The notes under the pieces were generated by a model. The model was not told the origin of the DNA. It did not search any database and saw only the letters and a list, made by a program, of their open reading frames with translations. Shown one piece after another: positions 32,791 through 45,746 of a DNA stretch of 64,000 nucleotides. Positions within the stretch are counted from its first letter, which is position 1. Every line of letters begins with the position of its first letter. A program made the translations under genes and the position numbers. The stretch is taken from positions 4,340,001 to 4,404,000 of the forward strand of contig NZ_CP014571.1 of assembly GCF_017357425.1 (NCBI RefSeq). The letters run 5' to 3'. Source of the stretch: Arthrobacter sp. D5-1 (lineage in GTDB: Bacteria > Actinomycetota > Actinomycetes > Actinomycetales > Micrococcaceae).

Positions 32791-33297
32791 TTACTTCTTG
32801 GAGCGGGCCTGGACCAGGTTGGCGAACGGAAGCCTGCCGTGAGCTGCAACGAAGGCCGCTTGATAGCCGGCTTCGGCCGCATTCAGTTCGGACGGAGGAA
32901 ACTCTTTCCAGGCAACAATGAGGTCCAAAGCATCCCGTAGTTGCCAGATGAGCCGTGCATCCCAGACAACGGTGGGCCGTCCGCGGCCGTAGTCCAGGAA
33001 TTCCTGGATCTGCTTGCGAAGCCCTCGGTTACCCTGGCTGCCGGCGCTTGCTTTGCCTACGTACAGCACGGAAGCATCCGCAATCCACTCGGCCTCCAAG
33101 GCTTCCCGCTTGAGCGAAGGGTCCTTCTTCTTGAACGTGCCGGCAGTGCTCTTGCTGAGGAATACGGGGTCGAAATCAGCGGGGCACAGGATGGCGAAGA
33201 CGCCGGGGCCTTGTGGAATCCGCATGGGATCGAGTTCGTCGAGCGGCCGGAATCCGGTGAAACCGTCCTGCGTGAGGGACTTTTTGGTGAAGAGCAT
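32791..33297 (-). CDS. GIY-YIG-like nuclease-fold protein
   Basis: 168 residues. IPQGPGVFAIL and SVLYVGKASAGSQGNRGLRKQIQEFL resemble the two GIY-YIG blocks (GIY and YIG, then Arg-rich helix). A later Glu (SELNAAEAGY) and RLPFANL fit the metal Glu and Asn positions. The first block is divergent (GVF for GIY). Possibly a DNA-binding or nuclease relative. A TTG start at 33312 is an alternative, and neither start has a clear ribosome binding site. Family assignment is by pattern only. Confidence 0.55.
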   Translation of the reverse strand: MLFTKKSLTQDGFTGFRPLDELDPMRIPQGPGVFAILCPADFDPVFLSKSTAGTFKKKDPSLKREALEAEWIADASVLYVGKASAGSQGNRGLRKQIQEFLDYGRGRPTVVWDARLIWQLRDALDLIVAWKEFPPSELNAAEAGYQAAFVAAHGRLPFANLVQARSKK

Positions 33298-33503
33298 GGT
33301 CCAGTGTGTCAAGGGGAAGTCACAAAATCCCCGTGCCGCGGGGTAGGCACATGAATTCTGACTTGTAGCTTAAAGTGTTCTCGGCTGCCCAACAGCCACC
33401 TCATCACTCCATTCGCGTCATAGGGGGACTATTTGCGCGCCCACATCAAGCTGCCCCACAGCTTTTGTCCACTCAATTTCTCTGTCCCGGGAGGTTCGCT
33501 CAC

Positions 33504-34613
33504 GTGCGGAAGCTAGCAATCGCTGCGGCCACATCCGTAGTGCTGGCCGCAACCACTTGGGCAGTCGCCACGGCTGCCAACGCTGACTCTGGAACAGTCG
33601 TCAGGGTCATCGACGGCGACACCGTGGTTGTATCGATCAACAACAACGACCAGACGATCCGCCTGTTGAACATCAACACTCCTGAAACCAAAGACCCAAA
33701 CAAACCCACCGAATGTCTTGGCCCGGAGGCCGCGGACCATCTGAAGGACGTGCTTCCCGTGGGGAGCAAGGTTCGTTTGGAGTTCGACATTGAACGCCAC
33801 GACAAATACGGCAGAACACTGGCTGGAGTCTTCAACGCCAGCAATCAATTGGTGAACGCAGAAATCGCACGACGAGGCCTCGGGGTTCCCATGGTGGTGG
33901 AGCCGAACCGCAAGTTCCTTCCGCCTGTTGAGGAAGCCTTCGAGGAAGCGCGTACGGCGAAGGCTGGCCTGTTCGCAGAAGACATCGAATGCACACTCCC
34001 CGCACAACTGACAGCTGCCACGGAAGCAATAACGGCAGCCCAAAGCGCGGCGCCAGCCACGACGTCGACGGGTGCGGGAGCATCGGCCACTGGGCTTGCG
34101 ACTGCCATCGCTTCTGCGAAGACAGCCAAAGACCTTCTGTCCGCTGCCAGGGACACCGAGCACTCGATTCTTTGGGCGGCGTACTCAGCCACCGAATCAG
34201 CAGCCAAGTTGTCTGCCTTAACAGCAGTGATATCCAAGGCCGAATCTGCCCACAGCCAGCTCAAGGACCAAGAGAAAGCATTGGCCGCAGCGGAGAAGAA
34301 GGCGGAGGAGGAACGAGTGGCTGCTGCTGCGCGTGCAGAGGCTGAAAAGAAGGCTGCCGAGGAAGCCGCGGCAGCTGCAAAGAAGGCTGCAGACGAGGCC
34401 GCAGCAGCAGAGCAGGCTCGAGCAGCCGCGGCGGCCGCCGAGGCTGAACGGATTCGGAACCTCCCTGTGCCGGCACCCTATGTGCCGCCGGCCCAGCAGT
34501 ACGTTCCGCCGGCCCCACAAAATGTGGCCCCACCGGCCCAGTCGAACCCCTACCCCGGGTATACGGGTCCCCGCTGCTATGCTCCCGGCGGCAAGTCCTG
34601 GCGTCCCTGCTGA
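33504..34613 (+). CDS. Secreted thermonuclease-family protein with Ala-rich coiled coil
   Basis: 369 residues from GTG with GGGAGG 9 nt upstream. A signal peptide (about 1-30, ends ATAANA) precedes an SNase domain (about 31-155). Its catalytic residues are recognisable in VVRVIDGDTVVV, IRLLNINTPET and EFDIERHDKYGRTLAGVF. An Ala/Lys/Glu-rich coiled coil (about 240-315) and a Pro-rich tail ending CYAPGGKSWRPC follow. Probably an extracellular or wall-associated nuclease for DNA or RNA scavenging. A strong terminator follows. Confidence 0.88.
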   Translation: MRKLAIAAATSVVLAATTWAVATAANADSGTVVRVIDGDTVVVSINNNDQTIRLLNINTPETKDPNKPTECLGPEAADHLKDVLPVGSKVRLEFDIERHDKYGRTLAGVFNASNQLVNAEIARRGLGVPMVVEPNRKFLPPVEEAFEEARTAKAGLFAEDIECTLPAQLTAATEAITAAQSAAPATTSTGAGASATGLATAIASAKTAKDLLSAARDTEHSILWAAYSATESAAKLSALTAVISKAESAHSQLKDQEKALAAAEKKAEEERVAAAARAEAEKKAAEEAAAAAKKAADEAAAAEQARAAAAAAEAERIRNLPVPAPYVPPAQQYVPPAPQNVAPPAQSNPYPGYTGPRCYAPGGKSWRPC

Positions 34614-34631
34614 CAAGCGGCTCGCGTGAAT

Positions 34632-34667
34632 GCCTGGTATCCCCGCGACGGGGATACCAGGCTTTCT
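34632..34667 (+). terminator. Rho-independent terminator after the thermonuclease gene
   Basis: A perfect stem, GCCTGGTATCCCCG and CGGGGATACCAGGC, with a 3-nt loop is followed by TTTCTT, 18 bp past the stop codon. It separates the thermonuclease gene from the hsd locus. Confidence 0.92.
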
Positions 34668-34712
34668 TGTCATTGGGCCGGGCACTCGTGGCAACGCACT
34701 AAACTCGCATGA

Positions 34713-36209
34713 GTGATCACAGGTGAAATCAAGTCCCAAGTAGACAAAGTCTGGAATACGTTCTGGAGCGGCGGTATCTCCAATCCTCTGGAAGTCATCG
34801 AACAGATCACCTACCTCCTGTTCCTCAAGCGCCTCGACGAGAACCACACACGGGCAGAGGCACAGGCCAACCTCTTGGGCGAGCCGATTGAGAACGCGGT
34901 GTTTCCCCAGGGCGTTGATCCTCAGGGCCGCCCCTACTCGGACCTCCGCTGGTCGAAGTTCAGGGACTTCGGCCAAACAGAGATGTTTACGGTCTTCCAG
35001 CAGAGCATCTTCCCGTTCCTCCGCACTGAACTGACCAAGCAGTCCAACGGTGAAGATTCCACCTACAGCCACCACATGAAGGATGCGCAGTTCAAGATCC
35101 CGAACGCGGGTGTCTTGAAGCAGGTGGTGGATGTCATCGACTCCATCAACATGGAGGGTCGCGACACCAAGGGCGATCTCTACGAGTACATGCTCTCGAA
35201 ACTGGCATCGGCGGGTACCAACGGACAGTTCCGAACCCCGCGGCACATCATCGACCTCATGGTCGCGATGACAGCACCCCAGCCACTCGAAGCGATCTGT
35301 GACCCAGCCGCTGGCACCTGCGGCTTCCTGGTTCAGGCCGGCGAATACCTCCGTAAGAACAACAGCAATCTCCTCACCAATGACGAGACGAGCAAGTTCT
35401 TCCATCACGAGCAGTTCCACGGCTTCGACTTCGACTCCACCATGCTTCGCATCGGTTCCATGAACATGCTCCTCCATGGGGTCGAGAACCCGGACGTCTC
35501 CTACCGCGATTCACTTGCCGACCTGCACTCCATCGAGGAAGAAAAGTACAACGTCATCCTCGCCAATCCGCCATTCGCCGGCAGCTTGGACTACGAGAAT
35601 GTGTCGAAGGAGCTGCTGAACGTCGTCAAGACGAAGAAGACCGAACTCCTCTTCCTGGCACTGTTCATCAAGCTTCTCAAGCCAGGTGGGCGAGCGGCCG
35701 TCATCGTTCCCGACGGCGTCCTCTTCGGCTCCACCGGCGCACACAAGTCCCTCCGCAAGACACTGGTCGAGGGTCACAAGCTCGACGCCGTCGTCAAACT
35801 CCCGTCCGGCGTCTTCAAGCCCTACGCCGGTGTCTCCACCGCTATGCTCTTTTTCACGAAGACCAACTCCGGCGGCACGGACAACGTCTGGTTCTACGAC
35901 GTAAAGTCCGACGGCTTCAGCCTCGACGATAAGCGCACGCCACTCGCGTCTTCCGACCTCGAGGACGTCCTCTTGCGTTGGAATCAGCGCACGACGGCGG
36001 AACTTGAGCGGGCGCGCACGGAACAGTCTTTCTGTGTTCCGCTTTCAGAGATCGTGGCGAACGACTACGACCTCTCGCTCAACCGGTACAAGGAGATCGA
36101 GTACGAAGAGGTCGTACACGCGGCACCTGAGGAAATCCTGGCAGCGCTTGACGGCCTCGAGGCTGAGATCAGCGCGGGCATGAACGAGCTGCGGGAGCTG
36201 CTGAAGTGA
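34713..36209 (+). CDS. hsdM: Type I restriction-modification system methyltransferase subunit
   Basis: 498 residues from GTG. An N-terminal helical HsdM domain (about 1-150: KVWNTFWSGGISNPLEVIEQITYLLFLKRLDE) is followed by an N6-adenine methyltransferase. SAM motif I is DPAAGTCGFL (about 196-205) and catalytic motif IV is NPPF (about 285-288). It methylates adenine in the target set by HsdS and forms M2S, and M2SR2 with HsdR. A TAAACT -10 lies 7 nt before the GTG, so the message is probably leaderless. It overlaps hsdS by 4 bp (ATGA). Confidence 0.96.
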   Translation: MITGEIKSQVDKVWNTFWSGGISNPLEVIEQITYLLFLKRLDENHTRAEAQANLLGEPIENAVFPQGVDPQGRPYSDLRWSKFRDFGQTEMFTVFQQSIFPFLRTELTKQSNGEDSTYSHHMKDAQFKIPNAGVLKQVVDVIDSINMEGRDTKGDLYEYMLSKLASAGTNGQFRTPRHIIDLMVAMTAPQPLEAICDPAAGTCGFLVQAGEYLRKNNSNLLTNDETSKFFHHEQFHGFDFDSTMLRIGSMNMLLHGVENPDVSYRDSLADLHSIEEEKYNVILANPPFAGSLDYENVSKELLNVVKTKKTELLFLALFIKLLKPGGRAAVIVPDGVLFGSTGAHKSLRKTLVEGHKLDAVVKLPSGVFKPYAGVSTAMLFFTKTNSGGTDNVWFYDVKSDGFSLDDKRTPLASSDLEDVLLRWNQRTTAELERARTEQSFCVPLSEIVANDYDLSLNRYKEIEYEEVVHAAPEEILAALDGLEAEISAGMNELRELLK

Positions 36210-37369
36210 AGCTCGTGCCACTCGTCAAGGTCGCTCGTGTCGTCTCTGGCGGGACGCCAAAGACTGCCGTCGCAGAGTACTGGGGCGGGGACATTCCATG
36301 GGCAACACCAAAGGACCTAAGCAGCCTCAAGGCTGTAGAAATCCACTCAACTCCCCGGGGACTGACCCCGGCGGGTTTGAAGGCTAGCAGCGCCGAGGTT
36401 CTACCCACTAATTCTGTTTTGTTCAGTTCCCGTGCGCCAATCGGGCTGTTAGCCATCAACAGCGTTCCCATGGCAACAAACCAAGGGTTCAAAAGCTTTG
36501 TTCCCGATCCAACCCAGCTTGAGGCCCGGTATCTCTACCGCTGGCTCGAATACAACCGGAAATGGCTACAAAGTCTTGGTGTTGGTGCGACGTTCAAGGA
36601 GGTTTCAAAAGCCACCGTTTCACGGATAGAACTTCCTCTGCCATCTGTAGCGGAGCAGCGGCGGATTGCGGCGATTTTGGACAAGACCGACGAGCTCCGC
36701 GCCAAGCGCCGCAAAGCCATCGCCCACCTCGACGCGCTCAACCAGTCGATCTTCCATTCCATGTTTGAGAAAACCCAACATCAGACGTCGTCCATTGAAC
36801 TTGCCGACGCAGTCGCGCCGGGAACAATCGTGACATACGGAATTGTTCAAGCGGGTGAGGAATTTCCCGGGGGCGTACCTTACATTCGGACGGGCGATTT
36901 GTCCGATGGGCGGATTGCAAGTGAGAAACTTCGGCGAACGGATCCAGTCATTGCTTCCAAGTTTGAGCGTTCAAGAGTCTCCGCTGACGACATCGTAATG
37001 AGCATTCGGGCAACCGTTGGCACGGTCGCCCAGGTACCACCTGCCTTGGATGGCGCCAATCTAACTCAGGGCACGGCGAGAATCGCCCCCGGGCCGGACA
37101 TGACCAGCTCCTATCTGCTGGAGTACCTACGTGCAGAACCCACCCAGCGTTGGATACAAAGAAACGTCAAGGGCGCTACGTTCAAAGAGATCACCTTGGA
37201 AAGGCTGCGTCGACTCCCCGTCACCACGCCCCCACTCGAACTGCAGCAGACCTTCGCAACCCGAATTGCCGCCGTCGAGCGCTTGAAGGAGACCCACCGC
37301 AAGCACTTAGCGGAATTGGACGCGCTCTTTGCTTCGCTCCAGAGCCGCGCGTTCAAGGGCGAACTCTAG
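36206..37369 (+). CDS. hsdS: Type I restriction-modification system specificity subunit
   Basis: 387 residues with two target-recognition domains. The first half starts VKVARVVSGGTPKTAVAEYW and ends in the conserved helix EQRRIAAILDKTDELRAKRR. The second half has the parallel end ELQQTFATRIAAVERLKETH. GATFKE is repeated before each helix (about 128 and 320). Each domain reads one half of a split DNA target. The ATG overlaps the hsdM stop. The gene is AT-richer than its neighbours, which is common for exchanged specificity genes. Confidence 0.95.
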   Translation: MKLVPLVKVARVVSGGTPKTAVAEYWGGDIPWATPKDLSSLKAVEIHSTPRGLTPAGLKASSAEVLPTNSVLFSSRAPIGLLAINSVPMATNQGFKSFVPDPTQLEARYLYRWLEYNRKWLQSLGVGATFKEVSKATVSRIELPLPSVAEQRRIAAILDKTDELRAKRRKAIAHLDALNQSIFHSMFEKTQHQTSSIELADAVAPGTIVTYGIVQAGEEFPGGVPYIRTGDLSDGRIASEKLRRTDPVIASKFERSRVSADDIVMSIRATVGTVAQVPPALDGANLTQGTARIAPGPDMTSSYLLEYLRAEPTQRWIQRNVKGATFKEITLERLRRLPVTTPPLELQQTFATRIAAVERLKETHRKHLAELDALFASLQSRAFKGEL

Positions 37370-37396
37370 GCAAGAGCCCAACGCTGACCTAGACCT

Positions 37397-37464
37397 GTCG
37401 CCGTACGGCAACAAATGCTAAAGTCGGCGTACGGCGACATTTACAGAAGTTGCCGTACGGCGAC
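37397..37464 (+). promoter_or_regulatory. Three phased palindromic operators of hipBA
   Basis: Three 16-bp sites match the palindrome GTCGCCGTACGGCGAC at 37397-37412 (ends GGCAAC), 37423-37438 (GTCGGC start) and 37449-37464 (GTTGCC start). Their starts are exactly 26 bp apart. They lie just upstream of hipB. HipB-type antitoxins bind such palindromes to repress their own operon, so these are most likely HipB/HipAB operators. Confidence 0.8.
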
Positions 37465-37475
37465 AGGAGCTTTCA

Positions 37476-37700
37476 TTGCGCACAGTCCGCGAGGCTGGAC
37501 CCCTTGTACGTGAGCTGCGTGAAGAGCGAGCGTGGTCCCAAGCAGAGTTGGCCCGACGAGCCAGCGTCTCGCGCACCTTTGTCATCGATCTTGAAGCCGG
37601 TAAAGCGTCGGTGGAGACGTCGAAATTCATGGACGTTTTCCAGGCCCTCGGTTTCGAGATCGCCATACGCGACAACGAAACGGGCGCGGTACGTTGGTGA
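37476..37700 (+). CDS. hipB: HipB-like antitoxin, XRE-family regulator
   Basis: 74 residues from TTG, set by AGGAG 7 nt upstream. A helix-turn-helix of the Cro/C1 type covers about 10-64 (VRELREERAWSQAELARRASVSRTFVIDLEAGKASV). The length is typical for HipB. Known role: neutralises the HipA kinase and represses the operon. Its stop overlaps the hipA GTG. Three palindromic sites directly upstream are probable targets. Located between hsdS and hsdR, an unusual position. Confidence 0.9.
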   Translation: MRTVREAGPLVRELREERAWSQAELARRASVSRTFVIDLEAGKASVETSKFMDVFQALGFEIAIRDNETGAVRW

Positions 37701-38989
37701 GTACCCGCGCTCTTGATGTCTTTATGGACGGGACGCTCTGCGGCCGCGTTGAACAGTCACCCTCCGGAAATCTGACATTCCGCTACGATCCCGGATACCA
37801 GGCCGCACAGAACGCGACACCGCTTTCGCTGTCCATGCCTCTGGCAGCCACTCTGCACAAGAAGCGCACTGTGCTCCCCTTCCTGCAAGGCCTCCTACCC
37901 GACAGTGAAGGTGCCCTCCAGACGATCGCCCGGCGGTTCCGGGTGTCCCCCTCGAACCCCTTCGCAATCCTCGAACATATTGGGGCCGACGTCGCGGGTG
38001 CGCTGCAATTCATGGCGCCCGGCACCGGTTCCTCAGATAGCGCCCTCTCAAGAACAGCTGTGCAGCCGGTCTCGGACGCCGACGTGGCGGAAATGCTGGA
38101 TCATGTGGTGACGGAATACAAGGACGGCACGCCCTACGATGACTCAGCAGGACGTTTTAGCCTTGCTGGGGCACAGCCGAAAATTGCCCTGCATCAACTT
38201 CCGAACGGCGAGTGGGCCGTACCCGAAGACGCCACTCCCACTACGCACATCCTTAAACCGGCAGCAGGCAGCTTCAGTCGTCTGGATGTGGTGGAACAAC
38301 TGACCATGAGGGCAGCAGCTTTCCTGGGGCTCGAGGTGGCGAAGTCCGAACTCAGCCGCATTGGCGACTGGGACGTTTTTGTGACACGTCGCTATGACCG
38401 TCAGGAAGTGGATGGAGCGTGGCACCGCATCCATCAAGAAGACTTTTGCCAGGCGTTGAGCGTTTCTCCAGCCAAGAAGTACCAGCACCGTGATGGCGGG
38501 CCGGGAGCGAGCGATATGGCCGCCCTTGTTCGATCATTTCCTTTTGAAGCAGACCGTCGGGAAGCAGGAGATGGACTGTACAGGGCCTTCGTTTTCAACA
38601 CCGTGGCAGGCTGCACCGACGCGCACGCCAAAAACTACTCCGTACTCCTCAACGGCAACAGGGCCCAGCTGTCTCCGCTTTATGACCTCGCCACCTATGC
38701 CCCCTATTGGGATGAGAACTCAAGCATCGACTTGGCCATGAGTGTGAAAGGCGAGTACAGACTTCAGAAAATCAGTAAGCAGATGTTGATCTCCACAAGC
38801 ACGCAATTTGGCGTTGATGCAGAAGCTGCCAGAGAAATAGTTGAACACTATTGTGGGGGCATCGTAGAAGCATTTGAAGCTGCCAGTGAAGAGCTGAAAT
38901 CCCAGCTGGGATCCCTCCCGAAAATCGCCGACGACACCATTGCGAAAATACGATTGCTGCCACTGGTCGAGGTCACCAGCCCGAAATAA
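37697..38989 (+). CDS. hipA: HipA-like serine/threonine kinase toxin
   Basis: 430 residues. An N-terminal HipA domain (about 1-110, with LLPDSEGALQTIARRF) is followed by the kinase domain. GRFSLAGAQPK contains the P-loop region and the Ser equivalent to the autophosphorylated Ser150 of E. coli HipA. The catalytic loop is CTDAHAKNYSVLL, followed by LSPLYDLATYAP for metal binding. In E. coli, HipA phosphorylates glutamyl-tRNA synthetase and causes growth arrest. The GTG overlaps the hipB stop. It is 65 bp before hsdR on the same strand, with no terminator seen between. Confidence 0.92.
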   Translation: MSTRALDVFMDGTLCGRVEQSPSGNLTFRYDPGYQAAQNATPLSLSMPLAATLHKKRTVLPFLQGLLPDSEGALQTIARRFRVSPSNPFAILEHIGADVAGALQFMAPGTGSSDSALSRTAVQPVSDADVAEMLDHVVTEYKDGTPYDDSAGRFSLAGAQPKIALHQLPNGEWAVPEDATPTTHILKPAAGSFSRLDVVEQLTMRAAAFLGLEVAKSELSRIGDWDVFVTRRYDRQEVDGAWHRIHQEDFCQALSVSPAKKYQHRDGGPGASDMAALVRSFPFEADRREAGDGLYRAFVFNTVAGCTDAHAKNYSVLLNGNRAQLSPLYDLATYAPYWDENSSIDLAMSVKGEYRLQKISKQMLISTSTQFGVDAEAAREIVEHYCGGIVEAFEAASEELKSQLGSLPKIADDTIAKIRLLPLVEVTSPK

Positions 38990-39054
38990 GGCCTAAACCG
39001 TCGCAGTCCCATGATTGACTACCTTCAGGACATCAACAGATCGGAGACGGCTGC

Positions 39055-39861
39055 ATGGGGGCAGTTACCAGCAACTTTGGGTTCATGCTGGGCGAGTGGC
39101 CAGAACTGGCCCAGCAAGCTCGTCGGGCCGAACAATTTGCCCGGGTCGATCCCCGAGCTTCCGTGTTCTACGCCCGCTACACCATCGAACGTATTGTTGA
39201 ATGGCTTTACCAAGTGGAGCCAGGGTTGGTGACCCCCTACAAGGAAGACCTCAACGCCCTCCTGAACGAGCCCACCTTCAAGAATCTTGTGGGTGGTCCT
39301 ATTGCCAACAAGTTCACGATCATTCGCAAAGCCGGCAACAATGCGGTCCACAATTCCGTTGGCCCCACCGTTCAAGGCGCTGAACTCGTGCTCCGCGAGC
39401 TGCACCACGTCTGCTATTGGCTCGCGAGGAACTACGCCAAAACAGGTAGCCAGCTGCCGCCGTCGCTGGCTTTTGATGCCGCGGCCCTGACCCCGAAGAC
39501 GAAGGCCCCGGTCCAGCAGCAATCGCCGGAAGAGCTCCAGGCCCTCGAGAGCCAACTCAAAGCCAAAAATGAGGCCCTTGCACAGGCAGCTGCCGACTCG
39601 GCGGACCTCAAGGCCCAGCTGGAGATTCTGCAAGCCGAAGTCGCCGAGGCCAAAAAACAGAATCAGACCGTCCCCGACCACCACGACTATGACGAGGCCC
39701 TGACCCGCAGGCACCTCATCGATCTTGAGCTGAACGAGGCCGGCTGGCCGCTCAGCAACACAGAAGACCGTGAGTTCAAGGTCGACACCATGCCCACGGC
39801 AAGCGGCACGCTGAGCGGCGTCGGCTACGTGGACTACGTGTTGTGGGCTCTTCGCGGTTGA
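39055..39861 (+). pseudogene. hsdR: hsdR, 5' fragment, cut by an ISL3-family element
   Basis: The first 263 codons of a type I restriction subunit, preceded by GGAGAC. It starts with a DUF4145 domain (about 1-130: YARYTIERIVEWLYQ, NKFTIIRKAGNNAVHN), then coiled coil and the start of the nuclease domain (LTRRHLIDLELNEAGWPL, then GYVDYVLW). Host sequence ends at 39845; the frame then reads into the insertion sequence and stops after five more residues. Missing the helicase motor, the product cannot restrict. The rest is at 41301-43908. Confidence 0.93.
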
Positions 39862-41292
39862 TGGTGAAACAGGTTCCGTGTCTTGAAATCTGAAGGGCTC
39901 GTAGCCCTGCTGTGATGGATGTTCTCTACGCATTCATCAAGAGTCAGGAGCTACGAGCCTTGAACGAGCCTACTTCGCCGCGCCCCGATGCTGCCACCGC
40001 CATTTTCAACCTGCCCGACTACCGGGTCACCGGCACCGAGGTCCTCGCCTTCGGGCAGCGACGGATCCGCGTCGTGGCCACCGCCGAGGCCGGCTGCCCG
40101 TCCTGCGGCGTGATCAGCACCCGCGTGCATTCACGCCGGTCACAACGCCTGCGTGACATCCCTGTCGCCGGCCCGGTCGAAGTGGTCTGGGCCAAGCGGA
40201 GGTTCTTCTGCGATGAGTACCTGTGCCCCCGCCGGACATTCACCGAGGAGACAGCCGAGGTACCGCGCCGGGCACGGTCCACCCGCCGGCTCCGTGAGGC
40301 CCTGGTGGCCGCCGTGATCGGTTCCGGGAGGGCCGCCGCCGAGGCTGCCTCTTCATTCGGTGTCTCGTGGTGGCTTGTCCAGCGGGCACTGGATTCCGCG
40401 GCGCTGACGCTGCCCGATGTCGATGCCCTGGCACCGCGGATGCTCGGCATCGATGAACACCGCTACCGGTCCGTGCGGTTCTTCCGCGACCCTGCCACGA
40501 AGGCCTGGAAACGCTACGAACCCTGGATGACCACCATCGTCGATCTCGACACCGGACAAGTCCTCGGGATCGTTGACGGCCGCGACAGCGAGGGGGTAGG
40601 AGACTGGCTGTTCGCCCGCCCGCTTCAGTGGCGGCTGGGCGTGCAGGTCGTTGCCATCGACCCCTCGGCGGCGTTCCGCAAGGCCCTGCGGATGTGGCTT
40701 CCACGCACCGCTGTCTCAGTCGACGCGTTCCACCTGGTCAAGCTCGGCAACGACATGCTCACCGAAGTCCGGCAACGACTCACCCAGCAGACCCATGGTC
40801 GGCGGGGGCGCTCCATCGATCCGGTCTGGGCCAACCGGCGACTGCTCCTGCGCGCCGGGGACACGCTCTCGGATCGGGCCCGGGACAGGCTCAGCAACGT
40901 GTTCGCGACCGACGATGTCACCGGGAAGCTGCAGGCCGCGTGGCTGGTCAAGGAACAGCTCCGGGCCCTGCTGACTACCGGCTCTCTTGCCGACGCTGCC
41001 GCCGCGAAGGACCGGCTGCAGGTCCTGGTCGAGCGAGCCGCGCAGCCGGAGACGAACCGGCTGTGGCGCACAATCTGCCGGTGGTGGAAAGAGATCGAAG
41101 TCCTCATTGTCACCGGTGCGACAACCGCGAAAGTGGAAGCCAACAACACCGCGATAAAACACATAAAGAGGACGGGTCGGGGATTCACCAACGCACGCAA
41201 CTACAAAACCCGTATCCTGTTGCGCAGTGCCGCCAGAACAGCGGCATGAACATCCCTCACGGCAGAACGTTCACCACGAACCGTGAAGAGCC
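39846..41292 (+). mobile_element. Complete ISL3-family insertion sequence, 1447 bp
   Basis: Terminal inverted repeats begin GGCTCTTC at both ends (left GGCTCTTCGCGGTTGATGG, right complement GGCTCTTCACGGTTCGTGG), matching at 20 of the first 23 positions. The element is flanked by an identical 8-bp duplication GTGTTGTG (39838-39845 and 41293-41300), the size known for ISL3. A single transposase gene and no passenger genes. It interrupts hsdR. The intact duplication and open transposase frame suggest a fairly recent insertion. Confidence 0.97.
39960..41249 (+). CDS. ISL3-family transposase
   Basis: About 429 residues from a TTG with CAGGAG 9 nt upstream. In-frame starts at 39912 and 39915 would add 15-16 residues. 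A zinc-ribbon-like N-terminus (CPSCG, later FFCDEYLCPRRTF) and HTH region are followed by the DDE catalytic core: MLGIDEHRYRSVRF, VSVDAFHLVK and KVEANNTAIKHIKRTGRGFTN (Glu). It moves the element by cut-and-paste or related transposition. Intact with no frameshift, so probably active. Confidence 0.94.
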   Translation: MNEPTSPRPDAATAIFNLPDYRVTGTEVLAFGQRRIRVVATAEAGCPSCGVISTRVHSRRSQRLRDIPVAGPVEVVWAKRRFFCDEYLCPRRTFTEETAEVPRRARSTRRLREALVAAVIGSGRAAAEAASSFGVSWWLVQRALDSAALTLPDVDALAPRMLGIDEHRYRSVRFFRDPATKAWKRYEPWMTTIVDLDTGQVLGIVDGRDSEGVGDWLFARPLQWRLGVQVVAIDPSAAFRKALRMWLPRTAVSVDAFHLVKLGNDMLTEVRQRLTQQTHGRRGRSIDPVWANRRLLLRAGDTLSDRARDRLSNVFATDDVTGKLQAAWLVKEQLRALLTTGSLADAAAAKDRLQVLVERAAQPETNRLWRTICRWWKEIEVLIVTGATTAKVEANNTAIKHIKRTGRGFTNARNYKTRILLRSAARTAA

Positions 41293-43908
41293 GTGTTGTG
41301 GGGCGCTGACGGACTGCCTCTCGGGGTGGTCGAAGCGAAGCGGACCACCAAGGATCCCCATGTAGGGAAGCAACAAGCCAAGCTCTACGCCGACTGCCTG
41401 GAACGTCGATACGGCCGCCGCCCCATCATCTACTACACCTCCGGTTACGAGACGTGGATTTGGGACGACACCATGTACCCGGAGCGTGCGGTGCAGGGTT
41501 TCCACACGCGGGATCAACTGCAACTGCTCGTCAACCGCAGGCAAAGCCGAAAGCCGTTGGCTGAACAGGCAATCGACAACTCAATCGTCGAACGTCCCTA
41601 CCAGCACAATGCCATTCGGGCCGTCACGGAAGCCTACGAGAAGGACTTCGAACGCAAGGCGCTTGTAGTCATGGCGACCGGCACGGGCAAGACGCGCACC
41701 GTCGTCGCACTCGCCAAGCTCCTGCAGGAAGCCAACTGGGCCAAGCGCGTTCTGTTCCTGGCGGACCGCGTTGCCTTGGTCAAGCAAGCGGCCAATGCGT
41801 TCAAGGCCCACCTGCCGGGCTCGAGCCCTGTCATCCTGGGCTCGGGTGAAGAGGCGGACAGCCGCATCCACGTGGCTACTTATCCGACCATGATGAACCT
41901 CATCAACAGGACTGAGGGAAAGCTGGGCCAGCGCACCTTTGGCATTGGCCACTATGACCTCATCATCGTCGACGAAGCCCACAGGTCGGTCTACCAGAAG
42001 TACAGGGCTATCTTCCAGTACTTTGATTCGCTCCTGATCGGGCTGACAGCCACGCCACAGTCAGAAGTGGACCGCAACACCTACAGCCTTTTCGGCATCG
42101 AAGACAACGTTCCCACGTTCGCCTATGAGCTCAGCGAGGCCATCGAGGCCGGATACCTCGTGCCGCCACGAGTCGTGCCGGTTCCGCTGAAGTTTCCTGA
42201 CCAGGGCATCTCGTACGAGGACCTGTCTGAAGCTGCAAAAGAAGAGTGGGACGAACTCGAGTGGGATGAAGACGGCGAAATCCCGGATTCCGTGGACGCC
42301 ACCGCGATCAATACGTGGCTCTTCAACGCAGACACAGTGGACAAGGCCTTGGAAGTCCTCATGACCCGCGGCCACAAAGTTGCAGGCGGGGATCGCTTGG
42401 GCAAGACCATCATCTTCGCAAAGAACAACCGGCATGCCGAGTACATTGCCGAACGCTTCGACAAGAACTACCCGGCATACAAGAGCCAGTTTGCCCGCGT
42501 CATCACCTACCAGGTGAACTACGCCCAGAATCTCATCGACCAGTTTTCGAACACCGAGAGCGACCCACACATCGCCATCTCAGTAGACATGCTGGACACC
42601 GGCGTGGACGTGCCGGACGTGGTTAATCTGGTCTTCTTCAAAATGGTCAGGTCCAAGACCAAGTTCTGGCAGATGGTGGGACGCGGTACCCGTCTCCGCC
42701 CGGAACTGTACGGGCCGGGCGAGGACAAGAAGGACTTCTTCATCTTCGACCTCTGCCGCAATGCCGAGTTTTTCAATGCAGGTATGCCTAGCAATGAAGG
42801 GTCCTTGGGTAGGTCACTCGCAGAGACCACTTTCGCGGCGCGCGTGCAGCTCCTCCAGACTTTCACCGACCTTCAATGGGATCCCCAGGCGCCTGTCATT
42901 GCCGACCTTCGGCAAACCCTGAAGCACACAGTTGACCGGCTTCCGCTCGACAACTTCCTCGTCAAGCCGGCTCGCAAATGGGTGGACAGGTTCACTGACG
43001 AAGCAGCGTGGACAACCTTGGCGGCCGAGGACTTCCAAGCTTTGCAAACCGAGATCGCCAAGCTCGCGTCCATCGGTGCGCCAGCTGACACGGAAGAGGC
43101 CAAGCGCTTCGACTACCTCATGCTCCAAACAGAATTGGCGTCGCTGCAAGGATCGGCGATCGGGCCGTTCCGGATAAAGATCCAGACAATCGCCTCCGCC
43201 CTGCAGGACCAACAGAGCATCCCGGCCATCGCCGCTCAATTGCCGTTGCTGGACACCATCCTCCACGACGACGAATGGGAATCCGTTTCATTGGAATGGC
43301 TGGAAGAAATCCGACGCCGACTCCGGGCATTGGTCCATCTCATCGAGAAGCGGAAACGCAAGGTGGTCTACACGAACTTCCAGGACGAGCTCGGCGTGCT
43401 TGAAGAAATCGAACTCGCGGGGGCAACAAATGGCTTCGTGGACCTCCCTCGTTACAAAGAGAAAATGCGTTCGTACTTGGCGCAATATGAGGAGCACGCA
43501 ACCATCCAACGGCTCCGGCGTAACAAGCAACTCACGGCCTTGGACCTCGCCGAGCTTGAACGTATCCTCCTCGAAAGCGGGCTGGGTTCGCTGGAAGATT
43601 TGAATCGTGCCGCCAATGATGGGCTCGGTCTCTTTGTCCGTTCCTTGATTGGTTTGGACCGCGAAGCCGTCGAGGAAGCGTTGTCAGAGTTTGTGGCTGG
43701 TACTACGCTCACTGCCCAGCAGCTCAACTTCCTCAAAGTTCTGACCAATCACCTGATGGAAAATGGAAAGGTCAGCCCAAAAGCCTTGTTCAAGTCCCCA
43801 TATAACGAGCTGGCTCCGTCCGGCCCGGATGTGCTGTTCGGCGATGACAAGATCGGGCAGTTGATCAGCATCCTCCGCTCCATAGAGAACCACGCGAAGG
43901 TGGGCTGA
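41293..43908 (+). pseudogene. hsdR: hsdR, 3' fragment, after the ISL3-family element
   Basis: About 870 codons that continue hsdR from GADGLPLGVVEAKR, which holds the Glu and Lys of the PD-(D/E)XK nuclease. The helicase motor follows: Walker A VMATGTGKTRT, IIVDEAHR, GLTATPQ and MVGRGTRLR, then the helical C-terminal part that binds M and S. Without the N-terminal Asp of the nuclease motif the fragment should not cleave. It could be translated from an internal start as a motor-only protein, but none has a clear ribosome binding site. Confidence 0.93.
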
Positions 43909-43965
43909 ACATGGAGCTGGCAGTGCCGCCGTCGACCCCCAAACCGTGAAGCGGTTGTTTCAGCG

Positions 43966-44018
43966 TTGACAGCCCCTTGTGACCCGTGCCATATTCAAAG
44001 CGTGAACCTGTCAGACAG
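43966..44018 (+). promoter_or_regulatory. Promoter and operator of the asparagine utilisation genes
   Basis: TTGACA (43966-43971), an 18-bp spacer and CATATT (43990-43995) place a start site near 44002. Right after it lies the perfect palindrome CTGTCAGACAG (44008-44018), of the GTC-N-GAC type used by FadR-group regulators. The position suggests autorepression. Confidence 0.6.
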
Positions 44019-44055
44019 CCGGACAGCCGGACAGCAAGAGCCCCAGGGCGGGCAT

Positions 44056-44721
44056 ATGCCCATTTCCCGCATCTCCGCAGCTGAAGCGGTCTTCGCGGCG
44101 CTGAGGCGTGCGATCGAGGGCGGCCAGTTCGATATCGGCACCAAGCTGAGCTCGGAAGCGACCCTGGCGGGCCAGTACGGCGTCAGCCGCTCCGTTATCC
44201 GGGAAGCGCTGCGATCCTGCAACACCCTGGGCCTCACCGTGACCAAAACGGGCAAGGGCACGTTCATTGTGGCCAACAAGGTCGCTAATGACCTTACCTT
44301 GGGTCAGTACAGTGCGCGTGATCTCAACGAAGCCCGCCCGCACATCGAGATCCCGGCAGCCGGGCTCGCCGCGCAACGAAGGACGGACGAGGAACTTGAG
44401 CACCTCAAGGAGATCATCCAGGAAATGCTCAGCGAGAACGACCCCGAGGCCTGGGTGAACCTGGACGCGAGCTTCCACTCCGCCGTGGCCCGCGCCAGCG
44501 GAAACCGGGTGTTCGCCAGCGTCGTCTCGGACATCCGTGAGGCTTTGGCCCACCAGTCCGAGACCCTCAACCTGGTCGCTGACCGGCAACACCGTTCGGA
44601 CGAGGAACACGTCGCCGTGCTCAATGCGATCGAAGCCGGAGACTCTGAAGCCGCAAGCAAAGCGATGGCCGCCCACCTGCAGGCCGTCAGCGTGGCACTG
44701 GACACGATCCTCAGCAAATGA
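44056..44721 (+). CDS. FadR/GntR-family transcriptional regulator of asparagine use
   Basis: 221 residues. An N-terminal winged helix (about 5-70: AVFAALRRAIEGGQFDIGTKLSSEATLAGQYGVSRSVIREALR) and a C-terminal all-helical FCD ligand domain (about 90-215; histidines in SFHSAVARASGN and EEHVAVLNAI) are present. The ATG at 44056 is chosen because the promoter and operator lie just upstream, leaving the earlier GTG at 44002 at the transcription start. It probably controls the asparaginase-aspartase-permease genes that follow and responds to an amino or dicarboxylic acid; this is inferred from context. Confidence 0.88.
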   Translation: MPISRISAAEAVFAALRRAIEGGQFDIGTKLSSEATLAGQYGVSRSVIREALRSCNTLGLTVTKTGKGTFIVANKVANDLTLGQYSARDLNEARPHIEIPAAGLAAQRRTDEELEHLKEIIQEMLSENDPEAWVNLDASFHSAVARASGNRVFASVVSDIREALAHQSETLNLVADRQHRSDEEHVAVLNAIEAGDSEAASKAMAAHLQAVSVALDTILSK

Positions 44722-44738
44722 ATATTCCAAAGGACACC

Positions 44739-45746
44739 ATGCCCGCCCCCGCAGCACCGGCCCACCAAACCGCGGCACAAAACCTCAAAGCGCCGCACCA
44801 CGTCCCCCTCGTCGAGGTAACCCGCGACGGCCTGGTGGAGAGCATCCACTACGGCTCGCTGATTGCCCTCACAGAAGACGGCACCACCGCCGTGGAAGCC
44901 GGCGAACCGGACGCGCCGATGTACCCGCGCTCAAGCCTGAAGCCGCTGCAGGCCGTAGCGCTGCTCAAGGCCGGTTTGGACATCCCCCAAAACCTTCTGG
45001 CACTCACCGCTGCCAGCCACTCGGGCGCACAGATGCACCGCGACGGCGCCACTGAAATCCTGAAGCTGCACGGCCTGACCGAGGCCGCACTGGCCAACAG
45101 CACGGACCTGCCGTACGGCGTTCAGGAGCGCGAAGAATGGCTCCGTGCCGGTAACGGTCCCACCCAGATTGCACAGAACTGTTCCGGCAAGCATGCTTCC
45201 ATGGCCGCAGTTTGCGTCATCAACGGCTGGCCTGTGGAGGGGTACTTGCACCCCGGGCACCCCTTGCAGGTCCTGGTCCGCGACACCATCACGGACCTCA
45301 CCGGCGAGGATGCAGCAGCGGTCAGCACCGACGGCTGCGGGACCCCGCTCTTTGCGCACTCCTTGCACGGCATGGCCCGCGCTTATGGCCGCCTCGCCGC
45401 CGCCGACGAAAGCACCAACGAGGGCAAAGTCGCCCACGCCATGCGCCGCTTCCCAGAGATGGTGGCCGGCGAAGGCCGCGACGTCACCGCCCTCATGCGG
45501 GCCGTACCCGGGCTTCTGGCGAAGGACGGTTTTGAGGGCCTCCAGCTGGTGGGCTTCCCGAACGGCACCGGTGTGGCCGTCAAGATTTCCGACGGCGGCG
45601 ATCGTGCCCGCATGCCTGTCACCGTTGAGGTTCTTCGCCGGTTGGGCGTCGACGGCGGCAGCCTGGGCACGCTTCAGAGCCCACCCGTGCTGGGCGGCGG
45701 CCTTCCGGTCGGCGAGCTCCGTGCGGCCCACATTTTCAGCAACTAA
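44739..45746 (+). CDS. L-asparaginase of the rhizobial/AnsA-II (Asparaginase_II) type
   Basis: 335 residues. Asparaginase_II family (Rhizobium etli ReAII/ReAV class): the SXXK motif is in YPRSSLKPLQAV. The zinc-site residues are in QNCSGKHA and STDGCGTP. It hydrolyses L-asparagine to aspartate and ammonia in the cytoplasm, feeding the aspartase encoded next. The start at 44739 has AAAGGA 4 nt upstream. An ATG at 44718 overlapping the regulator stop (ATGA) is the alternative. Confidence 0.9.
   Translation: MPAPAAPAHQTAAQNLKAPHHVPLVEVTRDGLVESIHYGSLIALTEDGTTAVEAGEPDAPMYPRSSLKPLQAVALLKAGLDIPQNLLALTAASHSGAQMHRDGATEILKLHGLTEAALANSTDLPYGVQEREEWLRAGNGPTQIAQNCSGKHASMAAVCVINGWPVEGYLHPGHPLQVLVRDTITDLTGEDAAAVSTDGCGTPLFAHSLHGMARAYGRLAAADESTNEGKVAHAMRRFPEMVAGEGRDVTALMRAVPGLLAKDGFEGLQLVGFPNGTGVAVKISDGGDRARMPVTVEVLRRLGVDGGSLGTLQSPPVLGGGLPVGELRAAHIFSN

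Follow-up and report, generated by a model that had tools for sequence, protein, structure and literature searches.

The DNA analysed here (the window) is a stretch of 64,000 nucleotides, bases 4340001-4404000 of contig 1 in the 5.12-Mb genome of Arthrobacter sp. D5-1, whose nearest named relatives belong to Paenarthrobacter and Arthrobacter. It contains a type I restriction-modification locus in which a predicted hipBA toxin-antitoxin pair stands inside the hsd genes, in the plus-strand order hsdM-hsdS-hipB-hipA-hsdR. From comparison with related loci, this hipBA pair looks like an autonomous toxin-antitoxin module in a slot for cargo genes that separates hsdS from hsdR, of which it takes the last seat. 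The features of the locus are as follows.

34632..34662, plus strand: terminator-like stem-loop upstream of hsdM (terminator scan)
34713..36209, plus strand: hsdM, methyltransferase subunit (Pfam HsdM_N and N6_Mtase)
36206..37369, plus strand: hsdS, specificity subunit with two Methylase_S stretches (Pfam Methylase_S)
37397..37412, no strand assigned: operator-like palindrome 1, GTCGCCGTACGGCAAC (palindrome search)
37416..37424, plus strand: TGC-TAAAGT, resembling an extended -10 box, located between palindrome 1 and palindrome 2 (putative promoter)
37423..37438, no strand assigned: operator-like palindrome 2, GTCGGCGTACGGCGAC (palindrome search)
37449..37464, no strand assigned: operator-like palindrome 3, GTTGCCGTACGGCGAC (palindrome search)
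37476..37700, plus strand: hipB, helix-turn-helix (HTH) antitoxin/repressor of 74 aa with a TTG start (HTH domain matches)
37694..38989, plus strand: hipA, HipA-family serine/threonine kinase toxin of 431 aa (Pfam Couple_hipA and HipA_C)
39011..39020, plus strand: hsdR leader element RTGRTTGACT, here ATGATTGACT (leader comparison)
39055..39845, plus strand: 5′ part of hsdR, from the DUF4145 N-terminus as far as the nuclease Asp (Pfam)
39846..41292, plus strand: ISL3-family insertion sequence inside hsdR, 1447 bp, transposase at 39912-41249
41293..43908, plus strand: 3′ part of hsdR, with the E-A-K motif, helicase domains (ResIII, Helicase_C) and EcoEI_R_C (Pfam)

All three type I restriction-modification genes (HsdM, HsdS, HsdR) are present, and a gene encoding an SNase domain precedes hsdM. 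The gene order, the overlaps of hsdM with hsdS and of hipB with hipA, and the 65 nt between the hipA stop and the hsdR start at 39055 are all as an earlier note on this sequence had described them; the overlaps measure 4 nt and 7 nt. HipA matches Couple_hipA (PF13657, 4.5e-25) and HipA_C (PF07804, 3e-51), and is the sole HipA_C match in the genome. Its best relatives of solved structure are the E. coli HipA chains; when the two are aligned, SLAGAQ, THILK, TDAHAKN and LYDL pair with SVAGAQ, THIIK, TDGHAKN and FYDI, so that the catalytic stretches are kept. We take these stretches to hold the autophosphorylated Ser, the Lys and the two Asp of catalysis. HipB is HTH-positive and matches the NCBIfam model couple_hipB with 58.8 bits, under the model cut-off of 71.65. 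The pair and its conserved placement are real; HipA is predicted to be toxic, and HipB to neutralise it.

In this genome hsdR is not intact. The ISL3-type element that splits it is flanked by an 8-bp target duplication, GTGTTGTG, at 39838-39845 and 41293-41300. The insertion separates the Asp of VDYVLW from the E-A-K of VEAKR, which presumably make up the HsdR nuclease motif. At least 16 full-length copies of the element (1444 or more of 1452 bases) occur in the genome at a printed identity of 100%, a lower bound since 40 of 81 candidates were scored, and because of these copies the insertion is probably recent and belongs to a recent burst of the element. The hsdR gene is uninterrupted in all eight relatives within the genus that have the embedded arrangement, where its region forms a single open frame, 1140-1147 codons long. 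In this genome the recent insertion breaks the restriction arm; hsdM, hsdS and hipBA are still open.

The interval between hsdS and hipB holds three 16-bp palindromes with a 26-bp period. Matches to the palindrome with at most three mismatches number 13 in the window (both strands counted), against a shuffle mean of 5.6, and those with zero mismatches are confined to the three sites before hipB. An exact degenerate search across the genome returned these three sites and one single site inside a reading frame, so that the array itself is unique; sites with mismatches were sought in the window only. The additional match (L002:1501-1516, G000:C1:65948; labels beginning with L denote opened loci and those with G genomes, the window being WIN and its genome G000) falls in a reading frame that is rhomboid-like by eye. 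Control of other genes by HipB through the same sites was considered and rejected, since the lone extra match of the exact genome search is intragenic.

The array, together with the box TGCTAAAGT, recurs in all 10 intact loci with embedded hipBA, at two mismatches or fewer per palindrome, and the box is kept in three of six loci with solo hipBA (L043, L044, L045) and occurs as a variant in the others (L047, L048, L049). Because the array stands in embedded loci and the box also precedes solo hipBA, the array can be taken to serve hipBA itself. In the nine embedded loci of the genus, window included, sites of this type (two mismatches or fewer) occur only before hipB, 1.6 kb from hsdR, and none lies near hsdM or in the gap between hipA and hsdR. 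HipB is thus predicted from these patterns to bind the palindromes, and most likely represses its own promoter through the three of them.

We compared the arrangement across a set of 206 genomes of the genus and a sample of 395 genomes of the family. HipA relatives at E ≤ 1e-70 are found in 14 of the 206, plus a fragment in G068, and the contexts of all 15 were opened; some HipA relative at E ≤ 0.001, the weaker ones lying outside this set, is present in 147 of 198 genus genomes. The order hsdM-hsdS-(mrr)-hipB-hipA-hsdR occurs in nine of the 206 (G000, G174, G023, G048, G034, G039, G185, G111 and G189), with mrr added after hsdS in three of the eight relatives of the window; in G189 it lies at a different chromosomal place, and no shared flank was found there. 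In four genomes the chromosomal site is the same but hipBA stands there by itself (G072, G166, G083 and G068, the last with hipA truncated), and two have it elsewhere (G045, and G147 with hipA in pieces). HipA matches at E ≤ 1e-60 occur in 12 of the 395 family genomes, eight of them outside the genus. In G341 (locus L201), from another genus, hipBA lies 72 nt ahead of hsdR, and in G243 (locus L202) two HipA-like genes lie in the slot on the other strand. G229 has no hsd match within 17 kb, and the HipA of G272 is on a 3.6-kb contig, too short to show context. Judged by coordinates only, HipA and HsdR are far apart or on separate contigs in G406 and G464 and are both near contig starts in G483; G311 has no HsdR match. 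The arrangement described in the earlier note is conserved, then, in nine genus genomes, and contact between hipBA and hsdR extends to one genome of another genus.

Between the hipA stop and hsdR lie 65 nt in the window, 70 nt in seven loci, 41 nt in L042 and 72 nt in L201. For hipB and hipA, dN/dS is 0.02-0.12 in 18 of 22 comparisons, the other four being synonymously saturated, and synonymous change in hipA is near saturation in the three solo loci of this set; hipBA is kept under purifying selection. HipB identity is 93-97% in the seven closest embedded relatives, and a much faster divergence of HipB than of HipA was therefore rejected. A screen covered 80 loci of named genomes that contain a HipA relative. 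In four of them hsd genes lie near hipA, three being Paenarthrobacter loci that share the arrangement and the fourth a distant case at 4.5 kb. This screen used only the window's Hsd proteins as queries, and dissimilar hsd genes could escape it. As to spread on plasmids, no HipA relative of at least 60% identity is among the 1999 matching records of 72,556 plasmid records searched, a search by HipA identity that covers HipA matches rather than their neighbourhoods.

HsdR relatives occur in 26 of the 206 genus genomes, all of which were opened, and in 55 of the 395 family genomes. Of these 55, 44 come from outside the genus, and 14 of the 44, mostly the closest, were opened and 30 left out. The resulting 40 hsdR-family loci, window included, were chosen by HsdR similarity and give no rate for all bacteria, and because G341 and G243 were picked also for HipA-HsdR proximity, the sample leans to hipA. 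Cargo was screened with one or two queries per type, so that dissimilar genes could escape. The slot holds an mrr-like sequence in 26 of the 40 loci and intact hipBA in 10, in every one of which the pair adjoins hsdR. A HipI-like kinase with a HIRAN protein is found in four slots (in pieces in L209); HigBA, GmrSD and PIN genes occur in three each and others as single cases (domains by Pfam), and an LGT gene and a radical-SAM gene are also among the cargo. Overall, 15 of the 40 loci have a HipA-type kinase gene.

In the four kinase-HIRAN slots, the gene for a HIRAN-domain protein comes after one for a short HipA-like kinase (L160:6534-8131, L161:6119-7716, L206:6722-8292 and L209:7797-9415), and in L160 and L161 these genes adjoin relics of hipBA. 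Kinase size and the HIRAN neighbour suggest that they belong to hipIN modules, a term that, like the names HipI and HipN, follows the usage in the relevant part of PMC8262856. In L202, from another genus, two HipA-family genes lie on the opposite strand between mrr and hsdR (L202:7504-10269).

Several relatives have lost one partner and kept the other. In L157, L160 and L161, hipBA is lost and hsdR remains an open frame of 1138-1157 codons. Two or three palindromes are kept in these relic loci (one shortened in L161), and scraps of the pair lie 180-370 nt before hsdR: hipB in L157 and L160, and a hipA tail, recognised by eye, in L160 and L161. The TAAAGT hexamer is changed in two of the three, L160 and L161; in L157 it is kept, and palindrome 1 and the preceding TG are gone. 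The converse loss is seen in L043, where the hsdR leader and the first hsdR codons, which match L036 at 79% over 73 nt, stand right behind hipA. Another gene comes next, and no match to hsdM or hsdS is left. No such scar of the hsdR start is found in L044, L045 or L049. Counting L043, four relatives have hipBA at the same chromosomal site, in truncated form in L049, but no hsd genes. We also observed a gene at L043:9478-10428 that is GIY-YIG-nuclease-like by eye and is found behind hsdR in four embedded relatives (L036, L037, L038 and L040), with 74-75% identity over about 955-964 nt; it was not found in window positions 33001-45000.

An 18-row clade of the HsdR tree (100/100 support) contains embedded and relic loci in each of its two branches. 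By our own reading of this tree, hipBA may have been present in the slot of the clade's ancestor and then lost several times. The HsdM tree places L159 elsewhere within the clade. L201 falls in another HsdR clade and its HipA joins a solo one (82/88), so that hipBA may have arrived there separately. The main embedded group of the HipA tree has the solo L043 as its sister (92/94, a value under the tool's star).

The hsdR gene also has a conserved element of its own. The sequence RTGRTTGACT is found in 17 of 17 leaders of the clade, 44-51 nt upstream of the hsdR start, and its occurrences in the 271,404 bp of these loci (both strands) likewise number 17, all at leaders; the clade's 18th locus, L172, has no hsdR start, and eight of the 17 leaders are from close relatives. 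The element is unchanged whichever gene lies upstream, whether hipBA, mrr, NYN, HigA, PIN or LGT. In the sister clade, to which L201 belongs, it is altered, to RTGRTTCAATGA in L201 and L206-L208, with a near copy in L204. The upstream neighbour of hsdR is on the other strand in five of the 40 loci (L156, L161, L202, L203 and L207), which calls for a local hsdR start in those loci. As a plain sigma-70 promoter the element was rejected: its TTGACT is -35-like, yet no -10 follows in the 13 loci checked. Leaders of another kind precede a more distant group of hsdR genes: read by eye, those of L162, L163, L167, L169 and L170 contain a TAGGCT box, and some have a palindrome of the type GTTGCCCGG...CCGGGCAAC.

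A scan of 34500-39300 found one terminator-like site only, at 34632 before hsdM, in agreement with the earlier note, which had seen no terminator between hipA and hsdR. Because none was found there, transcription probably runs across the 65-nt gap into hsdR. The earlier note went further and proposed that hsdR is transcribed from a hipBA promoter under HipB autorepression. A putative promoter of that kind is indeed visible, since the palindromes and box are present in all 10 intact embedded loci, and with no intervening terminator found this part of the proposal is supported. The dependence of hsdR on that promoter is not supported: hsdR is open in three hipBA-deleted loci, has divergent neighbours in five of the 40, and has a leader element independent of hipBA. 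A consensus scan of 34500-39300 reported no promoter-like site, missing even the TGC-TAAAGT box before hipB, and its failure to find a strong promoter between hipA and hsdR therefore carries little weight.

Our preferred reading, in which we have reasonable though not high confidence, is that HipBA is a complete type II toxin-antitoxin module, separable from restriction, at the last position in the cargo slot of a Micrococcaceae-type type I locus, with some HipB-gated expression of hsdR, in a layered defence. HipB would keep its own promoter shut through the three palindromes, and part of the HsdR supply would come from this promoter by read-through. Such control is possible, not obligate; because an upstream element belongs to hsdR itself and hsdR persists where hipBA is lost, both of which are apparent from the comparison of loci, HipB would be at most a modulator. 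hipBA and restriction would form separable layers of one defence locus, with restriction acting first, sometimes alongside Mrr, and growth arrest by the HipA kinase serving as a back-up of last resort. This layered function is suggested by the protein families and by the other cargo of the slot.

Several observations weigh against this reading. The hsdR genes of the hipBA-deleted loci could be fed from hsdMS. The window and seven embedded relatives form one close clade and so amount to few independent cases, with L046 and L201 outside it. The label 'embedded' is no more clustered on the HsdR tree than in shuffles (500/500 as low); this test needs three changes of the label, so gains of hipBA may also have occurred. 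The local hsdR promoter is putative: without a -10 box behind the leader element, the nearest consensus-like matches lie elsewhere, as an extended -10 at -94 in L157 (of the 13 loci checked) and as weak pairs at -229 to -249 in WIN, L036, L039, L158 and L159, which in WIN, L036 and L039 are inside hipA.

A stronger role for HipB, as the controller protein that the earlier note envisaged, seems to us unlikely, though it is the most probable of the three rival explanations. Here hsdR would be transcribed mainly from the hipB promoter and held back until methylation has been established, and phage attack, by removing HipB, would raise HipA and HsdR together. In keeping with this, hipBA is the pair touching hsdR in all 10 intact and all three relic loci, across a gap of 41-72 nt with no terminator found in the window, and the relic loci still contain two or three palindromes; with no HipB-type site at hsdM, methylation would escape HipB. 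Yet the regulator sites are not directly before hsdR, and the same array stands before hipBA where no hsdR exists. The relic loci keep hsdR open though TAAAGT is changed in two of them, the conserved hsdR leader does not depend on hipBA, and the upstream genes are divergent in five of 40 loci.

A bolder form, to which we would give a similarly small chance, is that hipB-hipA-hsdR is one infection-responsive unit, in which decay of HipB in a phage attack opens the promoter and delivers more HsdR and free HipA together. Kinases would then have been drawn into the slot more than once (hipBA, the HipI-like kinase with HIRAN, and the opposite-strand HipA pair) because growth arrest by kinases and type I restriction would cooperate. 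If this is true, one switch would arm both cutting and dormancy.

It is more doubtful still that HipBA is an addiction module stabilising the restriction locus. HipAB stabilises a Shewanella genomic island (PMC8978831) and reportedly a Klebsiella plasmid (PMC11487325), and hipBA has outlived hsd in L043 and is held without hsd at the same site in L044, L045 and L049. This same survival did not save hsd, however, and where hsd has outlived hipBA (L157, L160 and L161) the pair did not save itself; the suggestion of the earlier note that the toxin punishes loss of the locus is thus not favoured. Least probable of all is that hipBA is a passive passenger of an hsdS-hsdR recombination hot spot without joint function, for although many unrelated cargo genes, LGT and radical-SAM among them, occur in the slot, most of the cargo that could be recognised consists of restriction or toxin genes, and hipBA is kept by purifying selection and takes an identical position in all 10 loci.

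The closest known parallel is the RRDM island of enteropathogenic E. coli, where the DarTG2 pair lies between hsdS and hsdR as hipBA does here (PMC12255303). Its small repressor RptR acts on three palindromic sites that overlap a -10 box, much like the array before hipB, and the slot is termed a potential recombination hot spot, a likeness to the slot described here (PMC12255303). The same paper treats the controller (C) proteins of type II systems, small regulators encoded just upstream of a restriction gene, as HipB is. In contrast to these, the HipB sites lie 1.6 kb from hsdR with a toxin gene between, and hsdR survives without HipB. The locus differs from RRDM, as far as the account of that island goes, in that the toxin is the kinase HipA rather than an ADP-ribosyltransferase, and in that the embedded pair supplies the presumed repressor, its antitoxin, whose sites lie inside the locus before the pair and not before hsdM.

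The restriction enzyme itself restrains PrrC, whereas here a dedicated antitoxin gene lies beside the toxin gene. Defences embedded in immune systems have reportedly been described by Payne et al., whom PMC12255303 and PMC11411939 cite. PrrC itself, encoded in EcoprrI, is a growth-arresting toxin inside a type I locus that acts upon restriction inhibition, according to the passages on it in PMC12707154. In the type I locus of Vibrio cholerae VPI-2, a second defence system, TgvAB, is embedded, as one is here; TgvAB is a type IV restriction system and not a toxin-antitoxin pair, and an operator array is not described in the covered parts of PMC11411939. These parts also mention RloF/GmrSD genes in type I loci, and GmrSD is in three of the 40 slots here. 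The HipBA of E. coli K-12, in the portion of PMC8262856 devoted to it, shares the hipB-hipA order, Couple_hipA and HipA_C, the catalytic stretches and operators at its own promoter with the pair described here, which differs in being located in a restriction operon. Shewanella putrefaciens GI21 has HipAB and hsd on one element, as here, although in the relevant section of PMC8978831 hipAB is outside the hsd operon, on the other strand, and two other genes lie between hsdS and hsdR. Defence against phage has been shown for a HipA-family kinase that has a different partner protein (PMC13092281).

No description of hipBA inside an hsd operon was found in the open-access literature searched and, as far as that literature reaches, HipBA is a new occupant of a slot in which toxins and defence genes were already known (DarTG2, TgvAB). 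The kinase toxin HipBA thereby joins the toxins found within type I restriction loci, and in this family the hsdS-hsdR slot is a seat for exchangeable defence cargo. The relatives amount to natural experiments, with hipBA and hsdR together, hsdR without hipBA, and hipBA without hsdR. Since these three types are available, the gating of a restriction gene by an antitoxin is directly testable in soil bacteria.

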